Below are positions 28,277 through 62,200 of a DNA stretch of 64,000 bases, piece by piece. Within the stretch, counting starts at the first letter, position 1; the number at the start of each line of letters is the position of its first letter. Under the pieces are notes generated by a model that was not told the origin of the DNA, searched no databases, and was given only the letters and a program-made list of their open reading frames with translations. The position numbers and the translations under genes are program-made. The stretch lies in contig NC_060114.1 of assembly GCF_021155765.1 (NCBI RefSeq), forward strand, positions 14,827,501 through 14,891,500, in the 5' to 3' direction. This DNA comes from Diprion similis. Lineage: Eukaryota; Arthropoda; Insecta; Hymenoptera; Diprionidae.

Positions 28277-28579
28277 CTATGTGGCGGACTGTTTGTAGTT
28301 TTTAGTGCTCATTAACTTTTTGCCACACATAGCGCATATTGCTTTTTTGTACGCGCAGGATTGGCAGTAATGAGATCCGACCTGGTGAACCTTTTGCCTG
28401 CATATTTTACAGGTTTCGAATTTAGCTGTGTACGGATTAAACCGCGCCTTGCTAGTGGACAGAGCTTTGTTTTCCCCGACTTTCCGACCTCCACTTTCTA
28501 CCGTGTTTCTAGCCCCAGATTTCCACGGGTCGGGTGTTATTACGCGACCCAACTTCTTCTCGCACTTCTCGCACACCAT
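28277..28579 (-). CDS. CRIPT: CRIPT, cysteine-rich PDZ-binding protein
   Basis: A single open frame encodes 100 residues, the usual length of the family (human about 101). Four CxxC pairs (C3/C6, C57/C60, C72/C75, C82/C85) form the zinc-binding fold, and conserved stretches ARNTxESGGRK, ENKAL, GSHYCQ and ICAMCGKK are all present. CRIPT was described as a microtubule-linked partner of the third PDZ domain of PSD-95, and more recent work connects it to the minor (U12) spliceosome. The last residues here are KQSAT, whereas the mammalian form ends in a typical PDZ ligand (QTSV). The start is the only ATG that gives the conserved MVCEKCEKKLG beginning. There is no intron. It is convergent with the PDZ gene on its left and divergent from the F-box gene on its right. 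Confidence 0.97.
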   Translation of the reverse strand: MVCEKCEKKLGRVITPDPWKSGARNTVESGGRKVGENKALSTSKARFNPYTAKFETCKICRQKVHQVGSHYCQSCAYKKAICAMCGKKLMSTKNYKQSAT

Positions 28580-29648
28580 GACGCCGACGAATCTTTAATT
28601 GGAAAGAAAAATTTTCACAGCTGCAGTTTGTGTGCAGTAAACAAGTTGCTGGTTTATACAATGTTTTAAAGGACGGTATTCAGCTTTCATGATTAGAAAA
28701 AAGATCAGAAAGAAGAAAATAAAAGAGTTTGGTGCAGTGATGATAGAAAGTACAATAAACTATATGTTGAAAAATATAATATTTTATGTTCGGTCAGGTT
28801 ATGCTGGGTCAAGGTTAGTAGGGTTAGGTTATATTTGTGTCGGAGTTAAACGAATTCGTTGGAAAAGTAAGTCAGTTTCATTGATATTTACCGTTACTCA
28901 GGATCTGGAATCGAAGGAACTTCGCCGTAATACGAATCCTCTGATGGTGCGTAGTCCGTAATTTTCAAGGGTTCGTTAACTGGAGAAAGATAGGTTAGGT
29001 TAAGATGAAAACAAATAACACCAATCTTATGCGTCTTTTTCTTTTTAGGTTAAGGCTTTCTGAATGCTTGCTGGTACAAGCTTACAACTTAACACAAATT
29101 TACTCCCTAGATACGCTGCTAGTGGCCAGCCTGGACACGGATAATTTCGAGTACGGTTGGCAGTACTGAAGTCACTATGACCGCGCGAACTGAAATTAAA
29201 AATTTGTCCAAATTCAAGGGGATTTCCCGATTTTCACGCGTGTAACTAATTTGAATAAACGTAATATCGACTGATTTAAATTCAATGAAATAATCAGAAT
29301 TGAATTTTGAATTCTGCAAGCTCTTCAGCTTTTACTATTAAATAACCTGAAGTTATGTTTATTCTCATTTCGCTTACGTTATGTTTTGATTGTTAAGTCG
29401 ATCACGTGTTTTATGACAGATGAAGTAATGAAATAACGTATTTCGGAAATAATTCTCTGAAACAGATATCCCGTTTAGAAATCCAAGCAGTGCAACTATA
29501 GAACACTGGAAGAAGAGCCCCATTATATCATTCGCTTATCACCGCTCCGACGTATCTGATTTCCTGATTAGCCGCGAACCGCTAGTCACTATCGATATCG
29601 TGCAAATTATCAACAATTGCGTATAGGCTGCCGGAGATATCGAACAAA
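28580..29648. promoter_or_regulatory. Divergent intergenic region between CRIPT and the F-box gene
   Basis: About 1.07 kb separate the two divergent start codons, so the promoters of both genes must lie here. Several GGTTAGGTTA-like motifs occur (28808-28833, 28991-29003), but they are short and scattered. No TATA box or other defined element can be placed with confidence. Confidence 0.4.
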
Positions 29649-35317: not shown

Positions 35318-38300
35318 CTAATGAATCAATTCTATGCTCCATTCTTCGCCCATATTCACTCCGGGTTTACGCACAGTCAGAACATTGTTTCCAGGATTGT
35401 ATTTGGCCTCCAGCTCGACTACGCCTAGAGCTAAAAAAAAGAACAGTTTGAATTTCTGATTGGGCAATATTCAATTGTAAGTGATATATTTTGACAAAAA
35501 ATGAAAAGAAATATCTGAAAGCTTAGCAGACATCTCAGAGTTATAACATTTAACTCACTTTTCGAGGTCAATCGCGCCGATTTCACGTTCTTCGGGGGAT
35601 TGGCGATGTCTATCCTCTCCAGCCAGCTCTTAGTTTCATAGGTTGCGAGTTTATCTATCAAACTGGACGTCAGCTTGTATCCAGTCAAAGTGAACCTGAG
35701 GTACAAGTATTTCCCGTGACGATACTCGAAACTGGATTCATCGTCGATGTAGAGAGTGCCTGTAGCGGATCCAGCATCGTCAGCGATTACTATCAGCGTG
35801 TAGGGATCGTTTTTCATAGCGACTGTACTTCTGCGGGATCGGTTCTTTTTCGGAACGATCGATCCACCCCTTTGGTAGACTGGGATTCGCTCCATCGTCA
35901 CCGGAATACTGACAGCACCAGGTTGCTTGTACGGTTGCATGGTGTCAATGTTGTACCAAGTGACTTTACCCTCTCCAGGGAAGTAGACGCTAACTTCTGT
36001 CACTCCAGGCTCTAGAACTGGACGAACAAGGAGCGAATCGCCAACCAAGATCTCGTCGTCGATGGTAAAAGCTGCAGACTCAGTTGGGTAGTGAGCCCAA
36101 ATCGGCCTGATAACTGGAATTCCGCTGATTTCGTGCTCCCTAAATAATGTGTACCACACCGGCAAGTAGGCGTAGCGTCTCTTGAAAGTTTCACGAACTA
36201 TTCCGACAGTATTGTCGCCGAAAATCCAAGGCTCACGACGCTTGGTCTCGATATGAGAATGCTGACGCATAAATGGCAGCCAAGCGGCTGCCTGATTCCA
36301 CCTTGTGAACAGCTCAGTGTCCGGGTTCTTGAAGAAGCCTCCTATGTCCGCACCGCAGAAAGAGAAACCGGATATCGCCAGGGACAGACACATCGGGTAG
36401 CTGACACGAAGATGACTCCATTCACCTGTGTTATCTCCAGTCCACAGTGCACCATATCTTTGCGAACCGGCAAAGAAGGATCGTGTCAATACGAATGGAC
36501 GCAGGGAACCACCAGACCTGAAAGAAAGCATTTATTAAATCGAATATCTATGAATTCATTATTTTTACGGGTTTGATTTGGGACTAAAAAATTGAGTTCA
36601 GTCGAATATTCTCAATTTTAATTTTCAACATGAAGTAGAAAGTATAATACCTTCGGAATAAAGCCTCGTGCGTAGCGGAGGTGAACATCATTCCGTTAAT
36701 GTTGTGGATATCTCTGTGCTCCCAATTTTGATAGTGTATCAAATCCTTCGGCATTGTTACTTCAGGTCCATTGAACACACTCGGTTCATTCATGTCGTTC
36801 CAAATATAAACGTCGTTGGTAGTTCCCGTGAATTTGTCCAGGTTGTACTGCTCGATGTAATACTGCCTGACTTTAGGGTCAAACATATCGATGTAAGAAG
36901 TTGCACCTGGCCAGCACCATCCCTCGTAGTCTTTTCCATCTCTGTGTTTGACATAGTAGCCAAGATTTGTAGCGTCGTTGTGGAGGAAGTAGTTTTGGTC
37001 TCGCTTGATGTGAGGATCGATAATGACCACCAGTTTTCTACCCTTTTCTGTTAAATTACGGACCATCTCTAGAGGCTGGGAAAATTTACGCGTATCCCAC
37101 GTAAAGTACTTCTTGCCATCAGTGTATTCGATGTCCAGCCACATCACGTCCATCGGTAAGTCGTACTTGTCGAAATTTTCAGCCACCTGACGCACGTCGT
37201 CTTGGTCGTTATAATTCCAACGACACTGGTGGTACCCTAAACTGAACATCTGAAATGGAAATAATGTAAAAAATCGAGAAATTTGATTAAAAACATCAAC
37301 ATGACGTCACACAGATATATAAAAATTTTAGTCGGTTTTTGTACGAGAAAAACTGATGTTTATTAATCGTAAGTCAAGTTACCTGAGGCAGAGGAGCAGA
37401 TCCAGTTAAGCGTGTGTATTGCCTAAAGGCGTCTAAGGGATTAGGTCCGAGCATAAAGAATGCGTCGATTAGGCCTGACTCAGAGATGAAGTGAGCGTCA
37501 ACTTGGGGCTTTTTAGCAGACCCAGAAACGAAGTTCACAATACTCTCAACGACGTTGTTATCCGCGCTGGATGTTACGTCCACCCAAGTTTCAGCAGCAT
37601 TTTGCCAGTAAACTCCTGACGTTCCGCTTTCCTTTCTGTTAAAGTAACACTACTAATTATAAATCATTTCAAAGTGTATACATCATAAATGCTCCATTCG
37701 AGAATACTTTCGTATATAACAGAACTAAATTTTAAAATTACTTTATGAAAAATTTATGAGTTATTCGATATTAAAAAGATGAGGAGCTTACCCGTGACCA
37801 AAAACGACAGGAATGGCACCATAGAGGGCCATAAAATCGTCGACTTCGTATTCAAAAACGTCCAAATTATAAAGTCTGTAAGGGTCGGATTTCTTCGTGG
37901 ATTTCAACGCAAATGATCCAGCATGCTCTGGAACCCCATAAACATTTTCAGCGCCTATGAAACTGAAGTCTAGTGCCACAGCCTCTGGCCCTAAGGGTTT
38001 AGAATCGTGATGTGATTTGAAATTTTCTTCCCAAGCTCCAGGATCAGAGTCTGCGCCGTCGCCTGGGTATTCGGGATTAGTCTCAGCTGGCTTTTCTCCT
38101 TCCTCACCCTCAGGTTTCCTGTAACAAAAGGTTATCAAAGATTAATTAAATCCCATCAATCACCAGTTATAAATTCTGTGAAACATTCGAATATGTTGAC
38201 GGTAGGTCGATGAAAATGAACTTACGGCTCTGGTTTAGTGCGTATGTGTTCAAACCGCATGAGTCCTCTTGCATTGGCAGAGAGAACGACTTGTTCACCG

Positions 38301-41482: not shown

Positions 41483-41637
41483 GTAAGTTTCCACGATTGA
41501 TTGGTATAGTTGAATAAATATAAACAAATTTACTCTGCTAGGGTTGCACATCTTACATCTTAATATCTCTGACATATTTTTATTTTCTTCAATTTTCAAG
41601 GCAAGAAAAACTCTTATCCTTACCATTCACAGGCTAC

Positions 41638-42365
41638 ATGAAGCTACCACCCCTTCTGTGCAACATCCTTATAGGAACTTCTATAGGGAAAACGGTTTTC
41701 GACGTCGTTGGATATGTCGCGCAAGTCGACGGTATTTCAATGCAACCAACACTGAACCCAAACAAGAAAGAGGTTGATCATGTCTATCTAAATTGCTGGG
41801 CTGTTCGAGGGCTCAAAGTCGATCGCGGTGACATAATTTCTCTATACTCACCTAAGAATCCTGAGCATACACTAATAAAGCGTGTAATCGGACTACCTGG
41901 CGACGTCATTGGCACCATTGGATACAAGACAGACTTCGTAAAGGTCCGGGAGACTGAATTAAACTGCAAAACATTGAATTTTTTTATCATTACAGTTCAT
42001 TATATTAACAAATTTAAGTCCATGACTAAGAAGGATTAGTTTTCGGAATCAACATGACATAAAATTATCAAGCATAATGAATCCTTAATCAATAAGTCTG
42101 GAGAAGAAGTGAACTTCTTAAGAAAAGAACTTAAAGAAGACAACTTGTAAATCATTATCCGCAGGTTCCAGAGGGTCACTGCTGGGTCGAGGGAGATCAC
42201 ACAGGTTATTCTATGGACTCAAATAGCTTTGGTCCAATCTCACTGGGTTTGGTAATAGCTAAGGCTACTTGCATTGTCTGGCCTCCAAAACGTTGGCAGT
42301 TCTTAAATCCCGAGGTACGTGAGCACAGATTACCGCTCAACATCCTGAGATCGTCTGTTGCCTAA
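41638..42365 (+). CDS. IMMP2L: Mitochondrial inner membrane protease subunit 2
   Basis: Two coding exons, 41638-41943 and 42165-42365, encode 168 residues (human about 175). It is an S26-family signal peptidase with a Ser/Lys dyad: Ser34 in [11 protein letters not shown] and Lys81 in [12 protein letters not shown]. The conserved box [20 protein letters not shown] follows in exon 2. An N-terminal hydrophobic segment (about residues 5-28) anchors it in the inner membrane with the catalytic part in the intermembrane space, where IMP removes bipartite presequences from cytochrome c1, GPD2 and similar clients. The donor of the coding intron is weak (AAG|GTCCGG); joining there gives FVKVPEGH as in the family. 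The GTAAAG six bases upstream would also keep the frame and delete Val-Lys. Only 30 bases separate its stop from the ITFG2 start. A GAG|GTACGT within exon 2 is read through, because the following RLPL matches the usual C-terminus. Confidence 0.93.
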
Positions 42366-42395: not shown

Positions 42396-44896
42396 ATGCG
42401 AGCCGTAAGCTTTGTTAAACGGCTGCAATGGGACGTCCCAGGAACAATTTTCAGACATGGTATGTCACTAGGCGATGTTGATAACGATGGCGACAACGAA
42501 TTGGTTGTTGGAACCGCAGAAGGGGAGCTATATATTTTTAAAGTACGTAAGATGTATGCATTCTGATACCAATTGAACACCATCAGTTCCTTCTGGTCGA
42601 GCTAATTGAAAACCAGAGAATATTTTTAATATATCCAGGGTTCGGACTTGTGGCAGAAAATAACAGGTCTTGGTCTCATAACTTGCCTAACAGTCGGCGA
42701 CATTTTTAACTACGGTCGTAATGCTCTGGTAGTAATTTGCGGGGATGGATGGGTCCACATCTTCTACAGTCCTCGACCAGTCAACCCAACTGCAACATCG
42801 CTGGGCTCGGTGGGTTCGGTGGGCCTTTTACCTGTAATAAAAGAGTCTACTCTTCAAGATCAGTCCGGCGCACCGACCGGTATGTCAAAAAACTATAAAC
42901 GTTTGATTTTTCCTGTTCTCGGTTTTTTACTCTAAAATCAATTTGCCATCAGGGCCAACCAGCGTGGACGTGGCCACAGGTATGAGCAGTATGATGAACT
43001 CGTCAGGTTCTGATCAAATGGATAATAACGTGGAATCGAATGAGCCCTCTGGGAAAATGCAGTGCGTTCACGTTCAACGTATTCCTACAAACACCAAAGT
43101 AGTCCTCCTCGCTGATGTAGACAAAGATGGGGCTGTGGAAATGATCCTGGGACTGACCGATCGCGTTGTGCGATCTTACAGATGGTCTAGTAGCGCCGAA
43201 CTTGGGTCTCGCAGACTAATTGGTTTAAATAAATGGGAATGTGCCGACCAAATTGGAACTGTAACTCTACAGGTATTTATTTGTTTTTTCCTAATACAAT
43301 ACATTGATTGGCACTAAAGTCATAACGACGTCTACTTTGTTACTCCATGAATTGCAGCACACTGGGGATGGCACACCGACTCTGCTAGTTGCACAGCCAG
43401 GCGGAACGTTTATGAGGATAAAATGCAGTCCTGAAGATTGTAATTTTGATGATCCTGATGGCTCGGAGACGAACAGTGAAGTAGCAGCAAGTTGCGTGGA
43501 CTATCAGATGCTGGGAATATCAAGAATGCGAAACCCGAATATCTCGACAGAGATTCTGGGTGACCTTGAGCCCGGAAAGCAGGAATTTGTGTCTGCATTG
43601 GACACTGAGGCAACAAAGTTTTCGGCGAAAAGTGTTTCTACTAAACAGAACACCTTCTCAGACGACAGTCAGCTCGGAATGAACGAGTTCAAAGCCTCGT
43701 CTTTGGAATTTAAGCGGAATTATTCTCAGCCGGAAATGCGGAAGGCAAGTCTAGACGCAGTGGATATCATTCGTCGAAGAGAAATTATCGCCCAGCATGA
43801 CCAAGCTGTGAGTTTTTACACCAGGCACGACACACGTGGCATCGACACGATCGACGGGAATTTTATCGGCGGTAACATCGTTCTGGGTGAGTTTGACGTG
43901 AGGACAGATAAAAAGTCTCTTCTTCCAACGCACAAGGACTTTTTGCCGTCTATAGACGACAATAAAGATAACAACAATCGTAGCGAGAGCGATGATAAGA
44001 ACTCCCAGGATTCCGTCGGTGCCAGAAAAGGAAAACCATATGCTCTAGCCACCCTAGACGGAACAATTATGCTCGTACAAGATGAAGTTATTTTATGGTG
44101 AGCCAGACTAGATGGTACCGCTCCATTTTCACAGCTCAAATTATATCTGCGATTAATTTATCCTTGATATAATGTTTCTTCCGCAGGGCGATGCAGGTGG
44201 ATCACCAAATATTTGCTCTGTGTCGATTGGATGTTACTGGCGATGGGACGGATGAGATAGTCGCATGTGCCTGGGACGGTCAGACATACATACTTGATCA
44301 GCAAAAAAATAGCGTACGATTCCAATTCGAAGAACCAGTGAGAGCCTTCTGTACTGGAAAATACAGCGTTTCATCTGGATCGTCAAGCCCCTGTTTAGTC
44401 TACAATACATTTCAAAATAAAGTGGGTGGTAGATGAATTTTCCAGACGGTGACTTTTCAGAAATTGAACGTACAGATTCGTAATTTGAGAATACTGAGGC
44501 TGTACTTTGCAAAAAGGAACAAAGCGAGATCGGTGGAATCGAATTCGTTAAACAGATGTTAATACGTTCCCTTTTATTTTAAGTCTATTTTCATACAAAG
44601 TAACCAAACCTGTTTAATCCTGTGTTTTCGGTTCTAATTAGTATTATAGAAACTACATTGTGACAAAGTAAATATCACGACTTGACTCCGTTTAATTTTA
44701 TTATTTACAGATATTTCTGTATCACGACGTGATTTTACCGAGTATGATGGTGTCCTCATTGGATCCTCTTGACGCACTTCATGACGAGGAGAAAAGAATA
44801 TTGGAAGAGTGGTTAAGCAAGGACAGTGAAACAGGGAAAGAGCACAAAATGCAGCTATTAACTGAATGGTTACTGTACAGCAATGATTGTTTGTAG
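42396..44896 (+). CDS. ITFG2: ITFG2, FG-GAP repeat protein of the KICSTOR complex
   Basis: Six exons: 42396-42542, 42639-42879, 42953-43272, 43358-44097, 44187-44421 and 44711-44896. Phases agree; 623 codons including TAG at 44894. The protein begins [16 protein letters not shown] as in ITFG2 orthologues. FG-GAP/beta-propeller motifs of DxDxDG type are seen at about residues 27-39 ([14 protein letters not shown]), about 184-196 ([13 protein letters not shown]) and in exon 5 ([20 protein letters not shown]). ITFG2, with KPTN, SZT2 and KICS2, forms KICSTOR, which brings GATOR1 to lysosomes and restrains mTORC1 when nutrients are low. At 622 residues it is much longer than human ITFG2 (about 447): the extra length sits in a Ser/Asn/Asp-rich loop in exon 4 and a smaller one in exons 2-3. 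AATAAA signals at 44898 and 44906 follow the stop almost at once. Its promoter is not obvious because IMMP2L ends 30 bases upstream. Confidence 0.93.
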
Positions 44897-47428: not shown

Positions 47429-49545
47429 ATTGATCTGTCCGAATTATTAGATACCTATGTATTACACATTGTATCAATTGCAAGTCGGAATGACTCGTAA
47501 TAAACGATGCACAGATTAATTTCGTATATTTAAGTTTAATTTTTTGTTCTTTTTTTTGTTTTTTATTACATTTTTCTTTAATTTGTTGATTCGTTTTTAA
47601 TATTTTTCTTTTAGGTATCTTTCGCCACGTTACTACGCAATGATTTTTCTGTATGATTTTTCACTTATTGTGCCTCATTATTCAATATTTATTACAAGAG
47701 AATTTCTCACGAAGAGATCCTTTTTATTTCTTTTTCTGTATGATAAAATTAATGATTCATTATTTGTATAAATTTCTCGTCAGCTGCGCCCGATTTGTAT
47801 TACGTAGGTTTTCTTTTTTTTTATATATATATTTTTATTTTATTTTTCATTGACGGCTATTATCATTATACAATTTAAATAATTAATTATTATTTTTATT
47901 TCTGTGTAGTTTAGAACATTTTTTTCTTTTCTCTTCGAATACTCATATCATTCGAATTCTCTATAGTTATAGGCGTATGTATAATAATATATACTATACA
48001 ATTGTATCAATTATCATATACCACGGCACTATAATTAATTTTCTTTTTGTTTTTGTTTTTTTGTTTATTTTCATATGGACTTTGTTATCGTTTCCTTAAA
48101 CTGTACGTTTTTACGCGCTATAATATTTACACCATAGAATTATTTATACTACAGAGCTTTTCATTTTATTAATCTTACTGTCATTATTATTATTCGTGTA
48201 TTTTGAGTAAAAAAATTATTCCGTTTCAAAATTAAACGAAATCTAGTACCAATTTGCATGCACAACTTTTGAGATGAAAAAGAATTTATTTTAAATATAT
48301 TCTACCACAGTAAATGTAATATTTATATTTGAGGTATGTCAATCCTTCTAATTTGCTTTTTTATATTTGAGATTTGTATGTTAACAACAATTTTGAGCCA
48401 ACGGAATTGTATACCAAACACTCTGATAGTTGGTAAAATGTCTAATATATAAATTAAATGGTAGGTTTTTAGTGATTTTATTTTTCTATTGATCTTATCT
48501 CTGTCGTATGAGGGATCAATTGGCGTGTTAAAACCTCGACGGAATTGAAATTCTTATCACCGTAGTCACGAACAGAGTAGAAATATGTGTAGAAAAATTG
48601 GCGTTATTATTACCTTCGGAAATATCTGATATCAGCTGAAATGGCTAAAAATTTCACGAAATAATTATCACCTACGTGTAAATATTTATTATAACGTGAA
48701 TAACGCGATGTAAAAAATCAGTTGTAAGTAACATTTCATTAAAACTAATTTACTATCACAAATGATAAATAAATTCGTCCTGCATCGAATTATATCCTCT
48801 TTAAAAACAGAAAATATATGTAAAATAACAACAATATAAATAAATCACAAAACGTCGGTGTAATTTTACGAATACGATCGTACTAATTGTGAGAGTATAA
48901 TTTTTCCTCAATATGCAAATAAATTTAATTTTCAGATAACTACCTCACCGAGAGTTCGACAATAGTAGAAATAGATATATTTCAATTATCCAGACTGAAA
49001 TTAGAAAAGCTGAGAAACTTTGAACTTTTGTCAACTTTACATTGAACTCTAGGCCTGATAAAGGCAGTTATAAAAATGGTAAAGGAATAAACGTAAAGGA
49101 ATATTATAATGCGAATGCTTTATTATTCCATTGGCTCGTAACTTCTCCTTTGATTGAAAACTGCTACGCATAGTGAACAATAACAACAACAACAGTAACA
49201 ATAACAACAATAATAATAAAATTTAATTTTCACAGAAGATTCAATTACGTGCATTAACTATTATACAAACACAATCACACATGCGCACACAGCGTCACAT
49301 ACGTACAAACGAACGACGTGCATACATACATACGTTGATATAAAAATACTACTAACAGTAATAATAATAATAATAATAATAAACACGTATATCATGAAGT
49401 TACGTACTGGAACAATAACTGATCAATTAATCAATCAACTTATTTCACATTAACTATAAGGTAGGTAGTTAGCGTATTTTAAATTTGGCAGTTATATTGT
49501 CTCTAGCTATTTGCTTCTTCATAATTATTGTATAACTTACATGTC

Positions 49546-49577
<32 letters not shown>

Positions 49578-50920
49578 TAATATATGTATATGTACCATTC
49601 ATGTATAATAAGTAGTTAATCATCATCGCCTTCATTATCTTAATTTTTTTTTATTTTACTTCATACCAATTTTTTTTTTAACTTTATTATCTTCCTTTCA
49701 CCCTCACATTATAAGACACGCCATAGCATCACGCACTGCATAGTATAGTTTATTATTTGAATTTGCGAACTTATTATTATTGTTGTTATTATTCTGTTTC
49801 ATTTTACAACCTAGCGTGTATTGATCGTTTCTTTTTTTTTCTTTTTTTTCTTTCTCTCTTTGTATAAACTTCTATACATATCTCTGTACTTATTTATAAT
49901 ATGTATATACATGTATATGTATAGGTATATGAAAGGGTAGTCTTTTTATGGAATATCAAGCAATGAAAACATAGCAAATAAGCCAGCAACAACGACAATG
50001 GTATCAAAAACTTTTTTCCTCTCAAATTTGCTCTACCGAGCATTCGTCTAGAACTTTATTCCCAGTCTACGAACCGATGAATAACGAAGGGAGGGAGGCA
50101 GAAAATATTCAGTGAAACCAAGGACCACCCAATGTGTGTGTGCGCACACAAACATGCACACACACAAACTATTTTTCTATGTTACGTCGTTTTTACTATT
50201 CCACAGAAGATTTGTATTTGCTTAATTATATGTATAAATATCCATTCGTGTCAGATTTGTATTCACTAATGTACGCGAGATCTAACGAAAGCAAAACTTT
50301 AACATTTAGTTTTGGTTTACTTTTTGTTCGCACACAATCTTACAATAATCCCAATAACGTTAGCAATACCAAAATAGGAAAATAATTTCTTTTTGCAATT
50401 TTTTCATTTGCTTTTCATAGTGTTTTAAAATTGGGTATAATTTTTCTGTTGGAACGGGTATTTATAATACATAATTAATCGAGGTCATACAAGTGTGAAA
50501 AAGTTCTGTAACATGTACAAGATTTTAGCAGCCCCCCCTCCAATACCGAGCCTTTTTAGTAACAAAGGTTCAAATAAGGAAAAAAGGACTTTTAGAACAA
50601 TGCAGAGCAATCTTCCCGAATAACGACCCTCAATTCTAAATGTCTTTCAGCATGATGACGACATTTATAACGCACACAAGTGCATACATAAATGTATATC
50701 ATACATGATATCAAAATTGTTTAATACCATAATTGTAAGGTAACTGGTGAAATAATTGATTTACAATCAAAATTTTGCTTTTTTTTGTGAAGTTTTTCAA
50801 TTCTTTCAACGTTAAAATCAGTTTTTTTTTACATTATTCTCCCCCTAGTGTTCTACGAGTACAACATAAGCCCTTAATATTATTTTCTTGTAATCATTTG
50901 GATGTACAATATAAAACATA

Positions 50921-51053
50921 AATGTACACCGCCCGAGGCGGATTCTGACCGGTTCAAGGCCACCGATGTCGTCTGCTACTATCTATTCAACCTGTGTAGC
51001 AGTCGACACCGGTGGCCTTGAATCGGTCAGAATCCACCACGGGATGTGTACAA
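50921..51053. repeat. 133-nt near-perfect long hairpin
   Basis: The arms, each about 58 bases, begin ATGTACACCGCCCGAGGCGG and include GGTTCAAGGCCACCGATGTC; the opposing arm in reverse complement reads TTGTACACATCCCGTGGTGG and GATTCAAGGCCACCGGTGTC. The loop is about 12 bases. The arms are GC-rich in a strongly AT-rich setting. It could be a foldback element, a hairpin RNA precursor or a small MITE. Confidence 0.8.
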
Positions 51054-51718
51054 TGGGTGTTATTGATGAAAATTACAGAAAACTTTCGGATGAATATACC
51101 AAAGTAAAAACTTCGAGTTTGTCGAGTGGCTTGAGGATAATACATAAATTTTATTTACCACTATATAATAATAAACTAAGGTAAGGTAAGCTGATTAGGA
51201 TAGATCGGAATTAACGACTGAACGAAACAGAAGAAATTAACCACGATAAAAGTCGAACTGCATAAATCCTGCTGTTGTTCGAACTAAATGTTCCTGATAT
51301 TATTATCATTATGAGATGAAAAGGAGTAGTGGGAAACAAAATATTCCTGATGACGATAGCCGTTGTTGATAGATGAAAACTTGGTGGTAGACACATAGTA
51401 AGATTTTTCTGGAAACAGTTGCTCCGCCGCATATGTATATTTTTTCTGGATTTGTCGGCATCACTTCAATTTTTTATGCCTCAAATTGAATCAAGTATGA
51501 ATTGCATTGCTCACTTTCTTCAACTTCTCTTTCCTAATGTAACGAACAGCGAAATTTTCTAAAATTAAGTAAATAAAATAAACGAATGATACGAATTCCT
51601 ATACGACAGAGTATTTAAAGAAGACTTGTTACATCTTTAATTTTACACAAAATAAGTTTAATCGATACAAAACCTCGATTCACTTTATAATACGCAAATT
51701 TTTTTTTCCTCTTTTCCC

Positions 51719-51724
51719 TTTATT
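51719..51724 (-). terminator. Polyadenylation signal downstream of the long ABHD17 frame
   Basis: AATAAA on the minus strand lies about 70 bases after the final stop of the 436-codon open frame, in the position expected for the 3' end of a transcript containing that frame. Confidence 0.5.
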
Positions 51725-51795
51725 TTTTAGAAGTCTTAAAAATTGTCTTCGATAGAATTACAATCTTCGAGTTTTCACCACCTACGGATCCTTGA

Positions 51796-53103
51796 CTAAC
51801 ACTTGGTCTCCAGTGTAGTTTTTTTCATCTTTTGAGAGCCACGAGTAACACAATTGCCCTGGATCTCACCGACGAGAGTATGTTTCGGTGCCGTATTCTC
51901 CGCGTCATTGTTGACTACTGCGTTAGATCCTACTTCGTCAAGAGAGAGTATTTCAGTTCCAGTCGGAGAGCAGCTAGTCGTAGTTCCCTCGCTGGTAGGC
52001 GAGGTGACACAGCTGTCGCCGACACTTTTACTTCTCGGAGTAGAATTACCTGATTTTTGAAACTGCCTTATATTGAGTGATAGGCTGGCCTGAATAGTTA
52101 CTTTTTCCACTCCCGTCCCCACCTCACGCGATCTGGCTGAGGCTGACAAAGAAGAGGTTGACGAACAGTTGCCATAGTTTGACGGACTTCTGGAGCGCAC
52201 GGCCCTCAGAGGGCTCTCTGGACTCGTTGGCGAGTTACTGGACAGTATTTTTGAACTAGCTGCGAGTCTGCTGGCGCATGGCGAATACTTTGATAAATTA
52301 ACGGTGATCTTATCAGGCTCAATGGTAAGCGAAGATCGACTGAGCTTCTTGAACGGACTGCAAGAAGGTTTTTGCTTTTTCACGTCACGTTTATCGCTGA
52401 CCTTCGAACAGCTTTTCACAGCCTTGTTACCCAGTGAGGATCTCTTTTCTTTTGAGCATTCAGGGTTCGCCTTAGCGCTTTTCGAACCCTCCGAAATCGC
52501 CGATTTCTTAACACGACTTCTACTGTTACTGTTCCTTAGGGTCTCTGTTTCCATCTCAGGTTCAACAGAGCTATAGCTTTGAGTCTGTGTTTGACTCTGT
52601 GTACTGTTCTGTTTTACCCTCGATGATTTTGCGTCACTTTCGCCTTCCACAGTCTTAGAACTCCGGCTGGTTTTATTTTCAGTGAATTGCGGACAAGTTT
52701 CAATCTGGATTTTGACCAAGCTAAAGTTGCCGGTCTGATCCCCGGCCGACAATTTCTTCAATATTCCCTGCTTGTTGTGTTTCTTTGACGCGTCAATGTC
52801 ACTGGCCTGATTTCTCTGACTTTTTTTTATCGTACTACCGTTTTCCGAGACAGTTTCAGCCGGTCTTGACTCTCTCTTGGCGTAATTATCACTAGCGGAG
52901 TAGACAGCCTGTTCAGGCGTCGATACTTCCTTGCCTTTTTTTTGGTCACATATTGTAATTGAGGAAGAACCGGCATCGTTGCCAGCTTTTTTAGTCGGGA
53001 TAGATTTATCCTCTTGGAAGTAGAATACCTCATCGTTTGAGAGAGGCGAGGTATCCTGGTCACAGGGAAGAACTGGGATAGTCTCCCCTGCGGAGGGCGA
53101 TTG
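51796..53103 (-). CDS. Long open frame after ABHD17, probable alternative C-terminal extension
   Basis: On the minus strand, 435 sense codons run from 53103 to the stop at 51796, in the same frame as the ABHD17 coding exon just upstream. The first ATG is at codon 184 (52554), so an independent start is unlikely. The peptide begins QSPSAGETIPVLPCDQD and is rich in Ser, Lys, Thr and Asn, with SPxSP and RSRSPS-type motifs; it is probably disordered and phosphorylated. A chance open frame this long is improbable. Three models join it to ABHD17: readthrough of TGA (53247) and TAG (53106); removal of a 165-nt intron between GTAAGC (from 53268) and TATAG (to 53104), which is phase 0 on both sides; or splicing of exon 2 (ending at 55800, phase 0) straight to 53103, which would drop the catalytic His. 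It could also belong to another transcript whose start I have missed. I recognise no known domain. Confidence 0.6.
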   Translation of the reverse strand, partial: QSPSAGETIPVLPCDQDTSPLSNDEVFYFQEDKSIPTKKAGNDAGSSSITICDQKKGKEVSTPEQAVYSASDNYAKRESRPAETVSENGSTIKKSQRNQASDIDASKKHNKQGILKKLSAGDQTGNFSLVKIQIETCPQFTENKTSRSSKTVEGESDAKSSRVKQNSTQSQTQTQSYSSVEPEMETETLRNSNSRSRVKKSAISEGSKSAKANPECSKEKRSSLGNKAVKSCSKVSDKRDVKKQKPSCSPFKKLSRSSLTIEPDKITVNLSKYSPCASRLAASSKILSSNSPTSPESPLRAVRSRSPSNYGNCSSTSSLSASARSREVGTGVEKVTIQASLSLNIRQFQKSGNSTPRSKSVGDSCVTSPTSEGTTTSCSPTGTEILSLDEVGSNAVVNNDAENTAPKHTLVGEIQGNCVTRGSQKMKKTTLETKC

Positions 53104-53244
53104 CTATAGAAGTTTTTCTGTAGGTGAAGTTGTTGATATTGAACTGGTCGTGTTTGAATTGTTCGAAACCGAGTGACCCTGGTTTCCAGCACGGACATGA
53201 CCTCCTACTTGCCCCCCCTGACCCTGGGAGAGGCTCAGTCGACG

Positions 53245-54214
53245 TCAGTTGACCAGCTCTACGCTTACAAACTGCTTCAGTCGTTCCAAATACTGATTGT
53301 AAAGCTCCACGTCGTTGTGACCTGCTCCCTGAAACCGAATATAGATGTGTAAATTTGCTGACACCATTTTGGATTGAAAGTGTCGAAAATGCAAATGACA
53401 AATATAACTTGATCTACGCTCCACCTCACGATTTCACCATACCATTACTATTAACAATTTCGTAGGTTGTGAAAAATTTAGTGCTCTGTCGGTTTGTAAA
53501 TACTTGCACAGTCGGAATCCGTTTACGTTTTCGATTTTTTAACAGTGAAACGACCGCGATTGCAAAAAAACAATGCCGCCACTATTTAACTGACGCCGCC
53601 ATGTTTGTTCGCGTGTTGAAATCTACTTTGCTGACAACGACACGATCGCAGTAACTCGTATATTCACGTTGAAAGCTACAGCAAAGTACGGAAATTCATT
53701 GATAATAATTTGTGCGACGGATATGCGGTTAGTATAATCCGCTGTATCACGGTTTACGATTCACGTCATGAAACCAGTCTGTGGATGTCACTAAAGGCGT
53801 TTATTTATTAGCAAAGACGACGGCGTTTCACGGCATTCAAAATATCAGCGACAATTATTATTATATTATATTTCCATTTTTTGACCAGTCTGGAAATCGC
53901 GAATTGCAAAAACAAAACCTTGTGATATCTGTTGCAGAAATGAATAAAGTTACCGTGAAATACTTCATTGATTACGGGGCTAATATTAGATTTTTTGCTT
54001 TCGAGTATCACTAAGCTCTTCAATCACGTGCGTTGGAATGTGTCTGAAAGTAAAATTAGGTATACGTGTAGCTAAGGAATCTATTTCACAGATTTGCATC
54101 ATATACCGAGTAAAATATGGAATACCTAGCACACACTTGCGACGTAATTGCCTCGGAATTATATCAAGATAAGATAACGTGAATGGAATGATTAAACACT
54201 TCCTTTATGTATCT

Positions 54215-54279
<65 letters not shown>

Positions 54280-57200
54280 AATGAACATATAACAAAACGA
54301 GTCGTGCGACAGTTTCTGTTAGAATTGCAGAGCTTAGTAAATTACATTAAGTTAATACTGATCACCCAATACACATTATATCGGAAACACTGCGGGTTTT
54401 TGGAACAACGGCCAATTTTATTTCAACCGCAAAGTAATATCCGTATCCTTGTAAACCGGGTTTACCTGGATTCCAAGATTTTTCACAATCAGGTGGAAGG
54501 TATCGAGGAAGCGGTAGCGCAAATCTAAGATGGAGATAATGACCGATTCATCTCAAAATTTCGATATTGTAATCTAATTCTGGATATTCACAGCGTTTCC
54601 ATACTATTTATATTACGAGTTGAGATTAGATATTAATTGACCGAGACTGTTATCGTTGTCAAAAATCTGTACGTTTACAATGTATACGCAGCTGTTTCTA
54701 ACAACGATTTTGTCACCCTAATCGCGTTACGTTGTCAACTACGTTACTGGGTGTAACGGTAAAGCTTTGAATTCGCCGAAATTTTTCATTATATTTATCT
54801 TCGTTCATTCTTTTTAAATTCTTTTTTTCTTTGTCTTTATCCCACGAGCAATGCCGATTCCTTAATTCGACCTATTTTTCTTATCGGGATAATCGAATTA
54901 TCGATTGACGAGTTCTTTCCTCTCATTGTTAGTCACACGGCGCGTTTTCTTATTGCAATCTGTAAAACAATCAAAGCCTTCCTTCCTTTGTAATTCTGTC
55001 TGCGCGGGATAAGTATTATACGCATAGGTGAAAGATGTATATGGATAACACATATGTATCGTTGTATAGGCGTGTATAAATTATCCAACAAAGAGGTACG
55101 CATTCACCTAGCTCTCAGTGAACGGTACGTGTGTAAATAATATTGAAATTGTGTTATCATCTCGCGTCACTTTATAACAAAACTGTGCGTCTATTTCGGT
55201 CTTAAATTTTGCCTTTTTTTTCATTTCCCTCTCTCGTTCACATCGTATGGAAGAGAAGCCTCTTTTTCACACCATCAGCAACTGAAATCCTAAGCGACAA
55301 CAACGTTTGCTTCTTTTTTTTTCATCTTTTTCGTCGTCTTGCCAAGATAACGTATTCTCGTATAATATTTTACATGAATAATTTATTGCTGATATTATAT
55401 ATTATACGTGTGGATATTCTCGCATTCCAGAACTAGACAAGAAAATAGCACGAGGGAATAATAGACAGCTTAATAGGTGGAAAAAAACATCATGTTGAAG
55501 TAGTAGTAACGATTCATGCTGAAGAAAAACCGTTATTTCACGATTTTGGAACTGTTTGAAATTCAGTGAATCGTAATAAAAGAAAACATCCTGATATTTT
55601 GCAATCTTAGTTCCTTAAAAATCATTGTAAAATTAAGAAAATAGAGACTTTTTTCCAATGTCTCGTTACGATGACGTTACTAGCTTCAACCTCGTCAAAA
55701 AACAATAATAATTGAATTTAACATAGTTTCGGAAATTTGCGGTAAACCGATAATCGCACGTATTCACTATACATATATAATGATCAGTTTTCTATTTACC
55801 TCAACCCATAATGGTTCCACAGGTCTTGGACATCGTTCGTAAATCGCTAGACCATGGCTAAAGTCTATGACTTCGTCTTCCGTCCCGTGAATGACCAGAA
55901 CAGGCGACGTCACTTTTGGAACTTTGTCTATACTGTAGTGGAAAAAAAGAAAAACAATAATATTGACGAAAAACTTGATAAAAACCTGATGAGATCACAT
56001 TTTTATTTCACGCATGTTATCATAATCTGATCAGGGGTCTCACATCACTCATCGATAATAATTAACGATGAAAAATGTGCGAAAAGAGAATACATATTAA
56101 AAGTATAAATGAAGAATTTGCGTTGCAGTAAAATGAGACAAATTATTTCGCGTCACATGACATAACGTTGTGCGCGGTAGGTAAGGAATATACATATATG
56201 TCCCCAGTGCAAATATATCCAAGGCAAAGTGTAAAATGCTTAGTACAAACAAATGCGCGACATACATAACTGCTTGCAATGTACCATGTATATAATATAT
56301 ATATATATATATATATACGTGGGTGACACTCATAAGAAGTTTGATTCACTCTGCCTACTGTTACTTCGTTTGTCTGTAGGTAGTTTTGAATATCTGTAAA
56401 AGGTGTCCCAGAAAATGTATGCCAGACTAGGTATGTAATATTTCTTCGCCTCTAATACAAAAGAATATTGCGTGGATACTTTCACATTAACTGTATACAG
56501 TTCATAGCTTTGATATTCAAACAATGTATGTGTCTAGCAAAGATATTAATTAGTGCGATGCAAATGTTCGAATATCAAATAACTATTGAAGAATTGAATA
56601 GTAGAAAAGTGACTCAAGGTGGGAATGTTTTTTTTTTTTTTTTTTTTTTTAAGGTGTCAGCAATAAAATGAATAACAAACAATGAAAAGACTGAGATTAT
56701 GTTCGGGATATCAGTTTAGAGCGAGTATCTTGGAGAGGATTAATTGGAGGACAAAAAACACCTTCATCATTCAGCATTAATCGTTCTTATGATTTTTTAA
56801 ACAATGATTCATTACGTTCGAATATCAGAGATGTGCCTCAATGATAACTTTGAGAATTGATTGTGAAGTACCGTACAGCGTGAATTGATATCTATACCCT
56901 GGATTCTACTATGCGGTAGTACAGGGTAGAAATAGTTTTATCAACGATAGAGAAAGAACAAAGGAATTAAAGGAAAGGACAAATGAAAAAATTAAGTAAC
57001 ATCGATTGTATCATAGAGAGGGATAGATTTATTATGGAGTTACGATCGTTGACTCGAAAGATAGAAGGTGTTTAAAAAAAAAATTAATAAGAAAAAGAGA
57101 TAGTAACCAACTACGCAGGTATCTAAAATAAAGAACCGTGTCTTGGATTCTTTGCGAATCTACGAATTACGCGTTATCTCAACAATTCGATTCAGGATAT

Positions 57201-58778
57201 CATTGATAAAGTTAAAGAGAATACATTTAAATTAAACACTTTGCTCTGTGTATTTAGAAGCTTCAATGATTTAATGATTTTCAAACAACTTTCTCATAAC
57301 TTTCTCTTTCCTTTTACCAATACATGATAGAGAAGTCGACAAAGTGACCACAAGGATTTAGCAAGAGACAACCCCAACTTTTCCCTGATCAAGATTAAAC
57401 GAAATACCAACCCAAATACCAGAAAGTTTGATATGGAATATAGTAATGCAAAAGTCTGTCCGATTTGAAATGTTTTCTGCATTGTTTGTGCGTGATAACA
57501 ATATGAACAGAAACAGTGAAAGAGGCATGAAGAGAATGAAAAGAGAATAAAGAGAATGGAGAGAGAATGAAGAGAATAAAAAGAGTGCTCGGTGAAAGCA
57601 CTGAAAGAACACAACGAGATACATGACTGGAGATAGCGGGATGCATTTCATCAGCAAGTCGTCAGCTGCTGCAATCTCAAAATAAGCTGCAAGATTTCCT
57701 GGGGAAACGAACATTCTGATAGCTACTGAGAAGAGTTTTCATCGCTACTTGATACAGAAATAACAGCGTATGACTGACATTTCTGGGGTACAAGCCTGAG
57801 ATGTTTTGCAAGGAATTCGTTAACCATATCACGTCGATTATTTACATATTCAGAACAAAACAAGAAAAGCGATGAATAAGCAGGACTAATTAGAATTTTG
57901 GGATATTAAATACTATCTAATCGAATGATAAATAGCAGACATTCGATTTAAATTGATAAAGAAAGAAGATATTTCTTCCAGATCGACGGATAAAACTCGA
58001 TATCACTTCCATTTGCGTAAACAATTTTTCTTTGAAGATAAATTACAACTGAATTTGAAATGTGACTTTATCCAAGTATTCATAAATAAAATGACGTTAG
58101 TTCACGTTTTCTTTACAATTTAAATTACCTAGGAAAAGCGTCGAAGAACCAGGTCCTCTTGGTATTGGGAAAGGCGACCCTCATCCCGGACATAAGAGGC
58201 GAATGAAGAACGACAGCGCCGACTTCATACCTGGCGGCAAGATCGACGGTAGGAACGGTACCGATGCTCTGTCCATAGAGGATGATGTTTTCAGGGCTGA
58301 TGCCGTACCTGGTCCTGAGAGCATGCCAAGCGGCGTCGATATCGGCGTACAAATTCTTCTCCGAGGGTTTGCCGCCTGATACCCCGTACCCAGAGTAATC
58401 GTAGCTGAATATATTGCAGTTTATCCTGGAGCCGAGGCCCAGGTAGAAGCTGGACATCTGTCCGAGGTCGACGGCATTTCCGTGGGAAAATAGTATCGTA
58501 AACCTCGCGGTTGCCGAGCACCTGACGAACAGGCAGGCGATCCGATTCCCGCGGGAGGTGCGGGCGTAGAAACCCTCGACGGATTCCTTCTCGCGTTCCG
58601 TGTATTGCCACTCGGCACGCTCCGAGAGGGCGATGGTGAATTTAGAACTGGAGGCCTCGTCCTCGGTGAAGGAGTACGTCGGCTCTGGAGGAAGGAAGGC
58701 GAGCTTCGCCGCGATCCTGGACGGACATGGGGGGCAGCAGAAGAGGCAGCACAGCTCGCTCAAGCTGAGGCCGTTCAT
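53245..58778 (-). CDS. ABHD17: ABHD17-family alpha/beta hydrolase (protein depalmitoylase)
   Basis: Three coding exons on the minus strand: 58778-58129, 55932-55800 and 53328-53245 (TGA), phases compatible, 288 residues as usual for the family. The N-terminus [20 protein letters not shown] carries the palmitoylated Cys cluster that takes the enzyme to membranes. The alpha/beta hydrolase fold follows, with the nucleophile Ser171 in GQSIGT, Asp236 in [10 protein letters not shown] and His265 in GAGHND, so the catalytic triad is complete. ABHD17A/B/C depalmitoylate N-Ras and PSD-95 at the plasma membrane and endosomes. The end, [16 protein letters not shown], is typical. The introns are 2.2 kb (55933-58128) and 2.5 kb (53329-55799). 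The paralogue (A, B or C) cannot be decided from this; insects usually have fewer copies. The same frame continues open beyond the stop (see the 51796-53103 entry). Confidence 0.95.
54221..54276. repeat. (GA)28 microsatellite
   Basis: An uninterrupted GA dinucleotide tract of 56 bases in ABHD17 intron 2. It is the longest perfect microsatellite in the window. Confidence 0.97.
55494..55696 (+). mobile_element. MITE-like repeat, same family as 7081-7522
   Basis: It reads TTGAAGTAGTAGTAACGATT then CATGCTGAAGAAAAACCGTT, and ends CGATGACGTTACTAGCTTCA. The interior shares ATTTTGGAACTG, CAATCTTAGTTCC and AAAATCATTGTAAAATTAAG with the copies near 7.1-7.5 kb, so the family is dispersed and not merely a local duplication. 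Confidence 0.65.
55933..58128 (-). other. ABHD17 intron 1, no gene inside
   Basis: AT-rich intron with TA tract 56296-56317, poly(T) 56629-56650 and a GA/AAG-rich stretch at 57520-57600 that produces low-complexity open frames on the minus strand (57294-57714). Nothing here is supported as coding. Confidence 0.6.
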
Positions 58779-59220
58779 GTTTAGAGTGCAGGTTGCTCTG
58801 TCTAAGGGAATTCGGTTCGGTTTACCGCGTGTATCGACCGTTAGCGCCTTGCTTCAGGCGGCTGTTATCACCTCGAGACGACGGCCGACGAGGAGGACAA
58901 GAGCGCGGGTGACGAGGAAGCAGAGTCGCTGCCAGCTGGGTGGAACATTGAGGCCAGCGGCGGTTCGGGCCGTTCGATTTTCAAAAAACCGCTGATTCGA
59001 TTCACCGATTCACTTGTTTTAACACCGACGGTTAACGAGCCGCGATCGCGTTTAAGGTTTAGACCCCGTAGGGGTCAGCGGCGGTTCGGGACGTTCGATT
59101 TTCAAAAAACCGCTGGTTCAATTCCCCGATTCACTTGTTTTAACTTCGACGGTTTGCGAGCCACGAAGCCGTTTAAGATTCATTTGGATACAGTGCGAAG
59201 AGAGAGACGAACGCCCGTCT
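58779..59220 (-). promoter_or_regulatory. CpG-rich promoter / 5' UTR region of ABHD17
   Basis: GC- and CpG-rich sequence directly upstream of the ABHD17 start codon, contrasting with its AT-rich introns. It contains a tandem duplication with a 121-base period (58955-59180). The transcription start cannot be placed exactly. Confidence 0.45.
58955..59180. repeat. Tandem duplication, period 121 bp, about 105 bp conserved per unit
   Basis: The two units start CAGCGGCGGTTCGGG at 58955 and 59076 and share GTTCGATTTTCAAAAAACCG and CCGATTCACTTGTTTTAAC. They differ at scattered positions, more toward the right end. The units are separated by a small palindrome, ACCCCGTAGGGGT. Confidence 0.85.
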
Positions 59221-62200
59221 ATTGACTCATCGTTTTTCCAGGTATACGCGTGACTGCGCGTCCGGTAGTATACCTGCGGTAATTTATACCAGGTATATAA
59301 AACGAAACCACGGTTGTTATCGTCGTGGCACGCAGGTGTCGCCTGTCTTTACGGAGCTCGGTTATTACTTTTACGCAATTTCACTATTCAGACTTCACTT
59401 TAGGTGTATCTTTCTGTTCGTAGTTTCCTTTTCGGAGCGAGAATTCATCGGGTTGCCATGATTGCGCGACGCGACGAACCGCTGCTACCTTATCGCGTTC
59501 ACTCACTGCTAGCTACTTCTATTCTCTTTCTTTGTAATCTTTTCACACTGCTGTTACTGCTGCTGGTGCTACGGCTACTGCCAATGACGATGATGGGCTT
59601 CTTTGTATACATACGTGCATGCGTCCGTGCACAAGGTGGAGCGCACCTTGTGTGCGCGATTGGTCTGCATGTACGCGTACGGCGTGTGCTGATTGGATTT
59701 TAACTATGCGCTTGTTGGGGCTGCGCTCTATGACACTGGAAAATCACGTATGAATACCCACGCAAGAACACTACTGAGAATATTTAGTACGTGGGGACAG
59801 CGGCCGACTCTCGACCCGCGATCACGAACACGGAACACTGCGTAAATAAAGAAACACGGGATTATAAACTGTTGGCAGCTGTTCCGGGAAAAAAGTCCTG
59901 TCGAATTTCGGTTTATTAGCGCACTCTGACGGCCATCTGCCGCAACACTGGCTCGAGGCGAATTAACCCCAGACGTTGTTGCCAACATTCCAGACCCAAA
60001 CATTAGACAAAATTGTGCGGGGAATTTCGTTCCGTCGGTAACTAGATCTCTCTCATGCTCTCATGATGAAGGAAGATAATGTTATATTATCATGGATGCT
60101 CATCTCTGAAATCACGCATCCTAGTGCGACTTATATTCCACCAGGTGACACGATAGTTCCATGATATCGCCAATTTAGGAGAAGCTCGAATTCCTACCAA
60201 AAAGCGAACTGACGATGTATGACCCGAGAAAAAAGACCTAGAATCTAACATAGATCAGTGCTTTTTATTCACCATCTTTTTTGCCCTTTCACTTTTAAAA
60301 AACGTAATCAAATAATTTCCCCCTCAATCTGGCTATCTGCAGCAATAAACTATTGCTGAGGGAAAAGCCCGTGTATTGGCGATGGTCAACGCTGAATGTT
60401 TGATATGAGAGCAGTGCAACACTTGGAAATAGAGAGCGTATAATGTATTCATCCACACACACACGGTATTAGTTTTTAAAATACATAATTTGTGAATTCC
60501 ATCAGATCACGGGGCTTTATACAAGTTTCATCATGCTAAATTCTAGTGTAAAGTTAGTGCAAGAGTACAGATGATTGCCTATTGGCAGGCGTGATGTGCA
60601 ACATTTCGGATTGCATGTAAATGCATAGATAGAATTTAATAGATAAACTATACGTGAACACTTTACTTAGACGTAATTTAATTGCAGTATAGGCATAAAT
60701 GATTTGATACACTCATGATTACGATCACGACATGATCATTCATCTTTAATGAAAATCTTTTCTCAACCTCAGTGAATTATTATACTTGCGAATAGAATTG
60801 CCATCGCGTTCTTGTAACGAAATTCACGTTCTCAGTACAATTCATATTTTAATGCCATGCTTAGTTTTCGTTGATCATTATTGTCACGGATAATAATCTT
60901 TTCATTTACAATCTGTATAATGAATCTAATGAATAGAAACGATATCGTCAATATATTCGAAAAACAACAAAAATTGTTTGCGATCGGTTGATTACAAATA
61001 AAGTAAATTATTACGTATGAGAATACGAAACTGTAATGGCTTATAAAAAACGTCAACGATCGTAAGTTACGGCGAAGAAACAGATCGCGATGCGTGATGA
61101 ATTGGCATTGAATTATATATCAAACTGCAGAGTTTCGTGACCGGCAAAAACGGTGAACCGAGGAAATTGGACTTTTTCGTAACAGATCGAGTACAAAACA
61201 CGATCCGGGATCGCGAAGAACTCGAAGATACCGCTAGACGAAAATCGCGCATTACGATTCCTCAATCTTCCCCGTAACTTCTGAGCTAATTGTCGTCGGA
61301 GATTCCGGTTTAACGAACCAAGTTAAAGTAAACAATGCGCTCCTGGGACACGATCATGTTCCATTCCAGATACCGCGTCGAACTAGATCTGACCCGGTTG
61401 CGAAGTACGGGCAACCCTACTCCTCGACTTCCTCGAATAATAGGACCACGTCTACGACCAGCCTCAGTTCAGAAACTAAAGTATACAGCTCTCTTCTCAG
61501 ACTTTCATTGTTCCCCGTCGAGGCGGTGCGCGAATATCACTATCGAAACTCGCGGCGCTGGGCGAATTTTTTTCTTTGTTAATAGTAATTTTCTTTCGGT
61601 CTATTTATTTTTGGGGGAATTTTTAAATACGATCATCGTCCAATTGACTAAATCTTCGCTAATCTAGTTCCATTAACGGTGCCAAGGATACGATTATCTC
61701 TCGCGGTGAGCATCGAGGTAAGTTTTGTACATACATGAATCGATGTGAGAATTCTACTCATCAGGACTAATTTTTATACTACAAGAGTTTATAAGTTGCC
61801 TGAAACGATACGTACCTCTGCGCTGTGGATACTTAATAATAAAATTTCGCTGAATTGAAAGTGTTCAATTTTATTCGGCGGCTCGCTCTCGCCGTTGTAT
61901 CCTGCAGGGTTCATTACCGCGTGTATAGCAGGTGTAACTTTCTTCGAAAGTTTCTTAAAGAGGAAGGCGGTATAATTTTATACCGAATCGAAATTAAATA
62001 GGGAAAAAACCGTCAGCGGACCGTTACGCTCGTTACGTGGATTATAATTACGTGATTTTGAAGTTCAGTACATCAAAGTGTACCGTGTATGAAGATAATA
62101 CTTTTTGCATTAGCTCTATTTGTCTCTAAGTCGAACCTTCTCGACAGACTGAGAAAAAGGACGGCTAAAAAGGGAGAAAGCGAAGCACGCCGGTTGCTGT

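Follow-up and report, generated by a model that had tools for sequence, protein, structure and literature searches.

The published text on insect stop-codon readthrough describes the phenomenon as widespread, with 353 candidates, 35 of them double, given for Anopheles gambiae (PMC5100048), 851 candidates, at least 306 of them estimated to be functional, for the bumblebee (PMC7826183), and two cases of double readthrough described from ribosome profiling in Drosophila (PMC3840789). According to these sources, insect readthrough favours TGA and a C as the next base (PMC5100048; PMC7826183), and the long extensions of fly proteins are described as disordered, as having no Pfam entity and as reaching up to several hundred residues (PMC4999894). 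The type I viral readthrough signal is given as UAG-CAR-YYA, and readthrough RNA structures are stated typically to start about 8 nt past the stop (PMC3542737). For the fly gene dfr, readthrough of a UAG is reported to be driven by a stem-loop that lies at about +10 to +58, and to fall when this stem-loop is shifted by 3, 6 or 9 nt (PMC13170385).

The window analysed here is a stretch of 64,000 nucleotides from the hymenopteran Diprion similis. On its minus strand is a gene that we take to be ABHD17, in which the reading frame continues beyond the first stop, through a second one, into 435 further sense codons; to our knowledge, the known forms of ABHD17 end at about the first stop. We put at slightly better than even the prospect that this tail extends the C-terminus of ABHD17 through programmed readthrough of both stop codons.

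Layout of ABHD17 and of the frame beyond its first stop

The coding parts of the gene are as follows, the splice scores here and below being from insect-like matrices that were not trained on this genome; a slash marks the splice point.

58129..58778, minus strand: ABHD17 coding exon 1, from the ATG to the donor at 58128 (650 nt; open reading frame; donor TAG/GTAATT, score 3.03)
55800..55932, minus strand: ABHD17 coding exon 2 (133 nt), ending at the phase-0 donor 55799, score 4.23
53245..53328, minus strand: coding end of ABHD17 in its last exon, 27 codons and the first stop (81 nt plus TGA; acceptor 53329, score 4.37)

The acceptor of intron 1 scores 6.66, and the three exon parts (58778-58129, 55932-55800 and 53328-53248; 650 + 133 + 81 nt) give a coding length of 288 codons. 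The spliced protein matches Pfam Hydrolase_4 (E 4e-13) and its translation contains GQSIG and GAGHND, motifs to which we assign roles by family, GAGHND presumably being the catalytic His motif. The Pfam match and these motifs point to the alpha/beta hydrolase fold and catalytic motifs of an ABHD17 depalmitoylase, and the features of this family, i.e. a Cys-rich N-terminus, an alpha/beta hydrolase core and GAGHND near the C-terminus, are also found here. Just 5' of the start codon, at 58955-59177, lies a 121-bp tandem repeat (1.8 copies, 88% match). Conserved neighbour genes recognised with Pfam are the following.

28280-28594, minus strand: CRIPT
36587-37306, minus strand: family 31 glycosidase
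41542-42036, plus strand: S26 signal peptidase
43295-44098, plus strand: ITFG2

The plus strand also has a 1069-codon open stretch at 22132-25338, the longest in the 264 kb surveyed and probably a large Ser/Thr-rich coding exon, the 1044-residue part of which, from 22207 on, gave no match in a Pfam search. Two 207-codon frames about 5.3 kb apart on one contig (L013:2581-3201 and 7885-8505), which are alike in their ends, entropy and length, look like a recent duplication or repeat.

Beyond the coding end of ABHD17, the following features are arranged on the same strand.

53245-53247, minus strand: first stop, TGA, in the context UGA-C
53107..53244, minus strand: inter-stop segment of 46 sense codons, open in the ABHD17 frame
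53104..53106, minus strand: second stop, TAG, in the context UAG-CAA-UCG
51796..53103, minus strand: Ser/Lys/Thr-rich tail ORF of 435 codons with its final stop, TAG (51798-51796)
51719..51724, minus strand: AATAAA poly(A)-signal hexamer, 3' of the final stop

The initial annotation had given the positions of the stops and the lengths of both open segments, had given codon 184 as the earliest ATG in the long segment and had described an RSRSPS motif within it, all of which proved right on rechecking. Since the 183 codons that precede this ATG contain no other, the tail ORF must be entered from upstream. A search for six poly(A) hexamers between the TGA and the TAG found none, and there is a second AATAAA, at 52677, inside the tail ORF; given this hexamer and that at 51724, with none between the stops, the ABHD17 mRNA probably holds much or all of the tail.

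Coding character of the tail and of the 46-codon segment

The 435 codons of the tail frame are free of stops, whereas 2000 dinucleotide shuffles had 20.5 on average and never fewer than 8; the part ahead of the first ATG, 183 codons, is likewise stop-free, compared with a shuffle mean of 8.8, and the two remaining sense frames hold 12 and 45 stops. It is the second longest among 20 ORFs of at least 200 codons in the 264 kb, two of which are mutual copies. Its codon log-odds score, 0.139, is near the mean for 129 left-out coding windows (0.136), while the sequence 3' of the final stop scores -0.168. The coding training for these scores comprised nine of the 20 ORFs plus the 105-codon CRIPT ORF, one of the others being the tail itself and 10 having been dropped as repeat-like or spurious, selections that were made by judgement; the windows termed non-coding are all of the remaining sequence, in which unannotated genes are still included. 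The score for the ABHD17 last exon, computed with its end set 5 nt into the intron, is left out of account. Between 55900 and 50000 the maximal GC-rich segment (preset GC 0.48 vs 0.33) is 53337-51776, and directly 3' of the final stop GC falls to 0.26-0.28. The fit of this block to the last-exon acceptor at 53329 and to the final stop at 51796 suggests a single coding exon made up of the end of ABHD17, the 46-codon segment and the tail. GC-rich non-coding DNA is also present, e.g. at the 5' end of ABHD17 (58001-60000, GC 0.51).

The low-complexity Ser/Lys/Thr composition of the tail could be explained by a chance open frame within a GC-rich 3' UTR, as could the synonymous-only codon score, which shows no preference for frame 0 (0.046, lower than the 0.069 of frame 2, the frame with 45 stops). 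However, the lack of any stop where no shuffle had fewer than 8, together with the drop in GC right beyond the final stop, makes chance a very improbable source of the frame. As in insect readthrough genes, the stop appears to be followed by an in-frame ORF of coding character, at least in its 435-codon part, and we regard the extension of ABHD17 as real and probably coding.

Taken alone, the 46-codon segment gives no clear coding signal. Its openness is within chance, 29% of its shuffles being equally open, as are 2004 of the 18939 presumed non-coding windows of this length (10.6%). Its GC content is 0.51, a value that 5.7% of unmasked 138-nt windows equal or exceed; if the TAG and the 16 codons after it are counted in, GC is 0.53, which 3.1% of windows reach. 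The coding scores in its three frames are 0.053, 0.106 and 0.079; 12% of open non-coding windows score as high as the segment and 21% of coding windows as low. Compared with shuffles, its preference for frame 0 has a P of 0.021 with a model trained on the tail, of 0.45 with one trained on another Ser-rich ORF, and of 0.23 with one trained on both.

The tail protein is probably disordered, as judged from its composition (82 Ser, 45 Lys and 37 Thr among 435 residues; K+R 65, D+E 46), from FoldIndex (-0.075 for the whole tail, with few 51-residue windows near or above 0) and from a single-sequence AlphaFold model, the mean pLDDT of which, 40, fits disorder and proves nothing. Linear motifs, likely due to chance, include one GILK (PP1 SILK-like), a weak PDZ-like C-terminus and 12 SP/TP sites; the tail may have a role in localisation or partner binding. 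No match to the tail was found among Pfam and PDB sequences at E up to 10. In its own genome (269 Mb, 60 contigs) the tail finds itself and one 30% match containing four stops, which was taken as low-complexity similarity. Scans of viral and genome contigs gave 7 and 46 pattern matches for the tail and 5 and 36 for spliced ABHD17, respectively, none of which was confirmed.

Stop contexts, predicted RNA structure and possible routes into the tail

The UGA-C of the first stop has a base that follows 18% of all TGA triplets in this DNA. The second stop, UAG-CAA-UCG, differs from UAG-CAR-YYA at the final base only, and TAG-CARYY makes up 0.78% of 5402 TAG triplets (264 kb, both strands). By comparison with published contexts, UGA-C and UAG-CAA-UC would both be counted as leaky. 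Folding of the RNA 3' of each stop gave the following.

53211..53234, minus strand: 8-bp hairpin beginning 10 nt after the TGA, not significant
53010..53096, minus strand: predicted RNA structure beginning 7 nt after the UAG, with its main hairpin at 53092-53061 and a second hairpin at 53057-53022
53096-53093 with 53013-53010, minus strand: closing helix of the predicted post-UAG structure

After the TGA, folding has a z of -0.90 over 100 nt and of +0.50 over a 131-nt stretch around the hairpin. The 100 nt after the UAG are predicted to fold with -35.8 kcal/mol (z -4.27), with equally good folds in one of 200 shuffles, and z ranges from -2.5 to -4.9 over eight window lengths from 50 to 150 nt. 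Among 100 windows tiled over the exon, a z of -4 or lower is found once, in the window that begins three bases inside the post-UAG stretch; five reach -3, those at 52650 and 52635 being distant from the UAG, compared with none of 178 windows in nine coding ORFs, ABHD17 exon 1 included. A z of -4.27 is reached by 7 of 1000 GC-matched windows after TAG triplets, several of which are by eye inverted or simple repeats, and a z of -4 by two of the 42 UAG-CARYY sites in the 264 kb, the ABHD17 site included. The post-UAG hairpin narrowly misses the strict stem-loop definition in the text of PMC13170385, having by eye either 32 nt rather than 35 or a 3-nt bulge rather than one of 2.

Two further forms of recoding were considered and rejected. 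Selenocysteine insertion found no SECIS element among the matches with E up to 1 in 49500-60000, in which region three sub-threshold microRNA-like matches lie at 49542-49935. As regards frameshifting, another sense frame is open past both stops and closes at 53063, so that reaching the tail in this manner needs two shifts. Readthrough, or bypass, may instead be confined to the UGA, the TAG at 53104 then being an error of the assembly, a nonsense change that is recent or still segregating, or a codon converted to UGG by A-to-I editing; the rest of the exon does look continuous, and editing of this type, which turns UAG into a Trp codon, is described as a recognised route (PMC3542737). An error would not, however, bring with it a readthrough-like UAG context and a stem-loop at the expected distance, and the UAG itself is only in a short, weak hairpin, which leaves this single-UGA explanation improbable. 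We are marginally more doubtful of a separate gene, the transcript of which would begin with a start exon of its own further upstream, perhaps at a promoter within intron 2 of ABHD17, and would have the tail as its last exon. Such a last exon could be entered at the acceptor-like site at 53056, but intron 2 has no phase-0 ATG-to-donor exon at a donor score of at least 3 (a weak point, as random stretches of equal length average 0.47), and the composition of the tail is continuous with that of the ABHD17 last exon. Within intron 2 there is a GC-richer patch (53480-53850, 0.36-0.43) with the start-like string ATGGCGGCGTCA and a stop six codons in, which could mark an alternative promoter.

The splice-like sites that bear on a further route, alternative splicing, are the following.

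53056..53057, minus strand: acceptor-like AG, TTCTTCCCTGTGACCAG/G, phase 0, score 5.30
53267..53268, minus strand: weak donor-like GT (TTT/GTAAGC), phase 0, 5' of the first stop, score -0.28

The tail would then be an alternative C-terminal segment entered at acceptor 53056, with both stops spliced out from either the exon 2 donor (55799) or the in-exon donor (53268, giving a 213-nt intron), both of which are phase 0 and join in frame. This acceptor, itself in phase, scores more than the true acceptor of intron 2 and less than that of intron 1; in sum with the exon 2 donor it reaches 9.53, like the true introns (9.69 and 8.60), and splicing would also accommodate a 46-codon segment lacking a clear coding signal. 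By contrast, there is no yUnAy branch motif within 60 nt of the site, a soft test since intron 1 also has none within 40 nt, and the previous AG is 17 nt away, compared with 29 and 41 nt at the true acceptors. Its pyrimidine tract is the 3' arm of the hairpin predicted after the UAG, and the in-exon donor is weak, with the best intra-exon pair summing to 5.02, well below either true intron. The join from exon 2 to 53056 would delete GAGHND, presumably the catalytic His motif. Were splicing the route, the stem-loop would either regulate it or be a coincidence, and the UAG-CAAUC context would be left without explanation. Equally good acceptors are rare in coding sense sequence (two sites in 9857 nt), for which reason splicing, unlikely on balance, is kept as the chief alternative and as one of some weight.

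Double readthrough is favoured by the stop-free 435-codon frame, the GC block at 53337-51776 and the 183 codons without ATG, by the UGA-C, the UAG-CAA-UCG and the structure predicted 7 nt after the UAG, and by precedent, i.e. the double cases predicted or observed in insects, the UAG stem-loop of dfr and the disordered, Pfam-free extensions of fly proteins. From these observed features we infer that readthrough is the likeliest route. Most ribosomes would halt at the UGA to give a 288-residue depalmitoylase; some would misread the leaky UGA-C, adding 46 residues, and some of those would misread UAG-CAA-UC, aided by the stem-loop 7 nt downstream, adding a further 435, so that the longest product would have 771 residues, one being counted for each stop. 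The basic, Ser-rich, disordered tail would likely serve to equip a membrane-anchored enzyme with partner-binding and phosphorylation sites, either in a subset of its molecules or in certain tissues. The fuller proposal, that one mRNA gives three depalmitoylase forms via two chained recoding sites that differ in type, the first a plain leaky UGA-C, the second a type I-like UAG with a stem-loop, such that the longest protein is for the most part encoded beyond stops and a large disordered basic region is present only with the full tail, we consider to be evenly balanced.

Several observations speak against double readthrough. The 46-codon segment has no clear frame-0 signal and the synonymous score does not favour frame 0 of the tail; the structure after the UGA is not significant; four further tail windows reach a z of -3, and another UAG-CARYY site reaches -4; the post-UAG hairpin falls narrowly outside the strict definition of PMC13170385; and a good acceptor-like site lies just 3' of the second stop. 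Two serial readthroughs should, moreover, give little protein. The initial annotation had proposed a fusion of the tail to ABHD17 at the RNA or translation level, and this is favoured by the stop-free frame, the GC block, the lack of an early ATG and, weakly, the lack of an intron 2 start exon at the threshold used. Its own argument, from the same frame, the same strand and adjacency, is weak, since chance by itself would put the two in the same frame 1 time in 3, and it omitted both the readthrough-type stop signals and the acceptor-like site at 53056, with the possible splicing route that this offers.

Comparison with known readthrough systems

Depalmitoylases are a class of enzymes that control how long signalling proteins stay on membranes. 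If double readthrough does occur at this locus, one such enzyme carries a translationally controlled tail that is larger than the enzyme itself, and more than half of the protein is lost from an annotation that stops at the TGA; the locus would also be a long case of double readthrough in which the two stops have differing signals, and would lend itself readily to reporter assays. The fly ABHD17 gene is, we presume, CG33096. Neither ABHD17 nor CG33096 was found among the readthrough candidates in the text of the Anopheles paper (PMC5100048), and the titles and abstract openings of published work on ABHD17 and on readthrough describe no such tail; ABHD17 could already figure in a published candidate list. 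Most likely, the ABHD17 tail is a new candidate of a known phenomenon, notable for its length and for two differing recoding contexts in series.

According to their published descriptions, the double-readthrough candidates of Anopheles and Drosophila resemble ABHD17 in having two serial in-frame stops, in favouring TGA followed by C and in having an extension without a known domain; they rest on alignments or ribosome footprints, whereas the ABHD17 case rests on one genome. Like ABHD17, where it is predicted, Drosophila drifter/ventral veins lacking (dfr) is reported to have a stable stem-loop a short way past a UAG (PMC13170385). By contrast, dfr is a case of single readthrough, shown by reporters and in vivo, and its stem-loop meets the strict definition that the ABHD17 stem-loop narrowly misses (PMC13170385). 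The tobamovirus type I signal, as given in the source text, has in common with ABHD17 the UAG-CAA and two pyrimidines after it, the final base at ABHD17 being G rather than A; the tobacco mosaic virus signal is described as a short local context, whereas at ABHD17 a predicted RNA structure comes after the UAG (PMC3542737).
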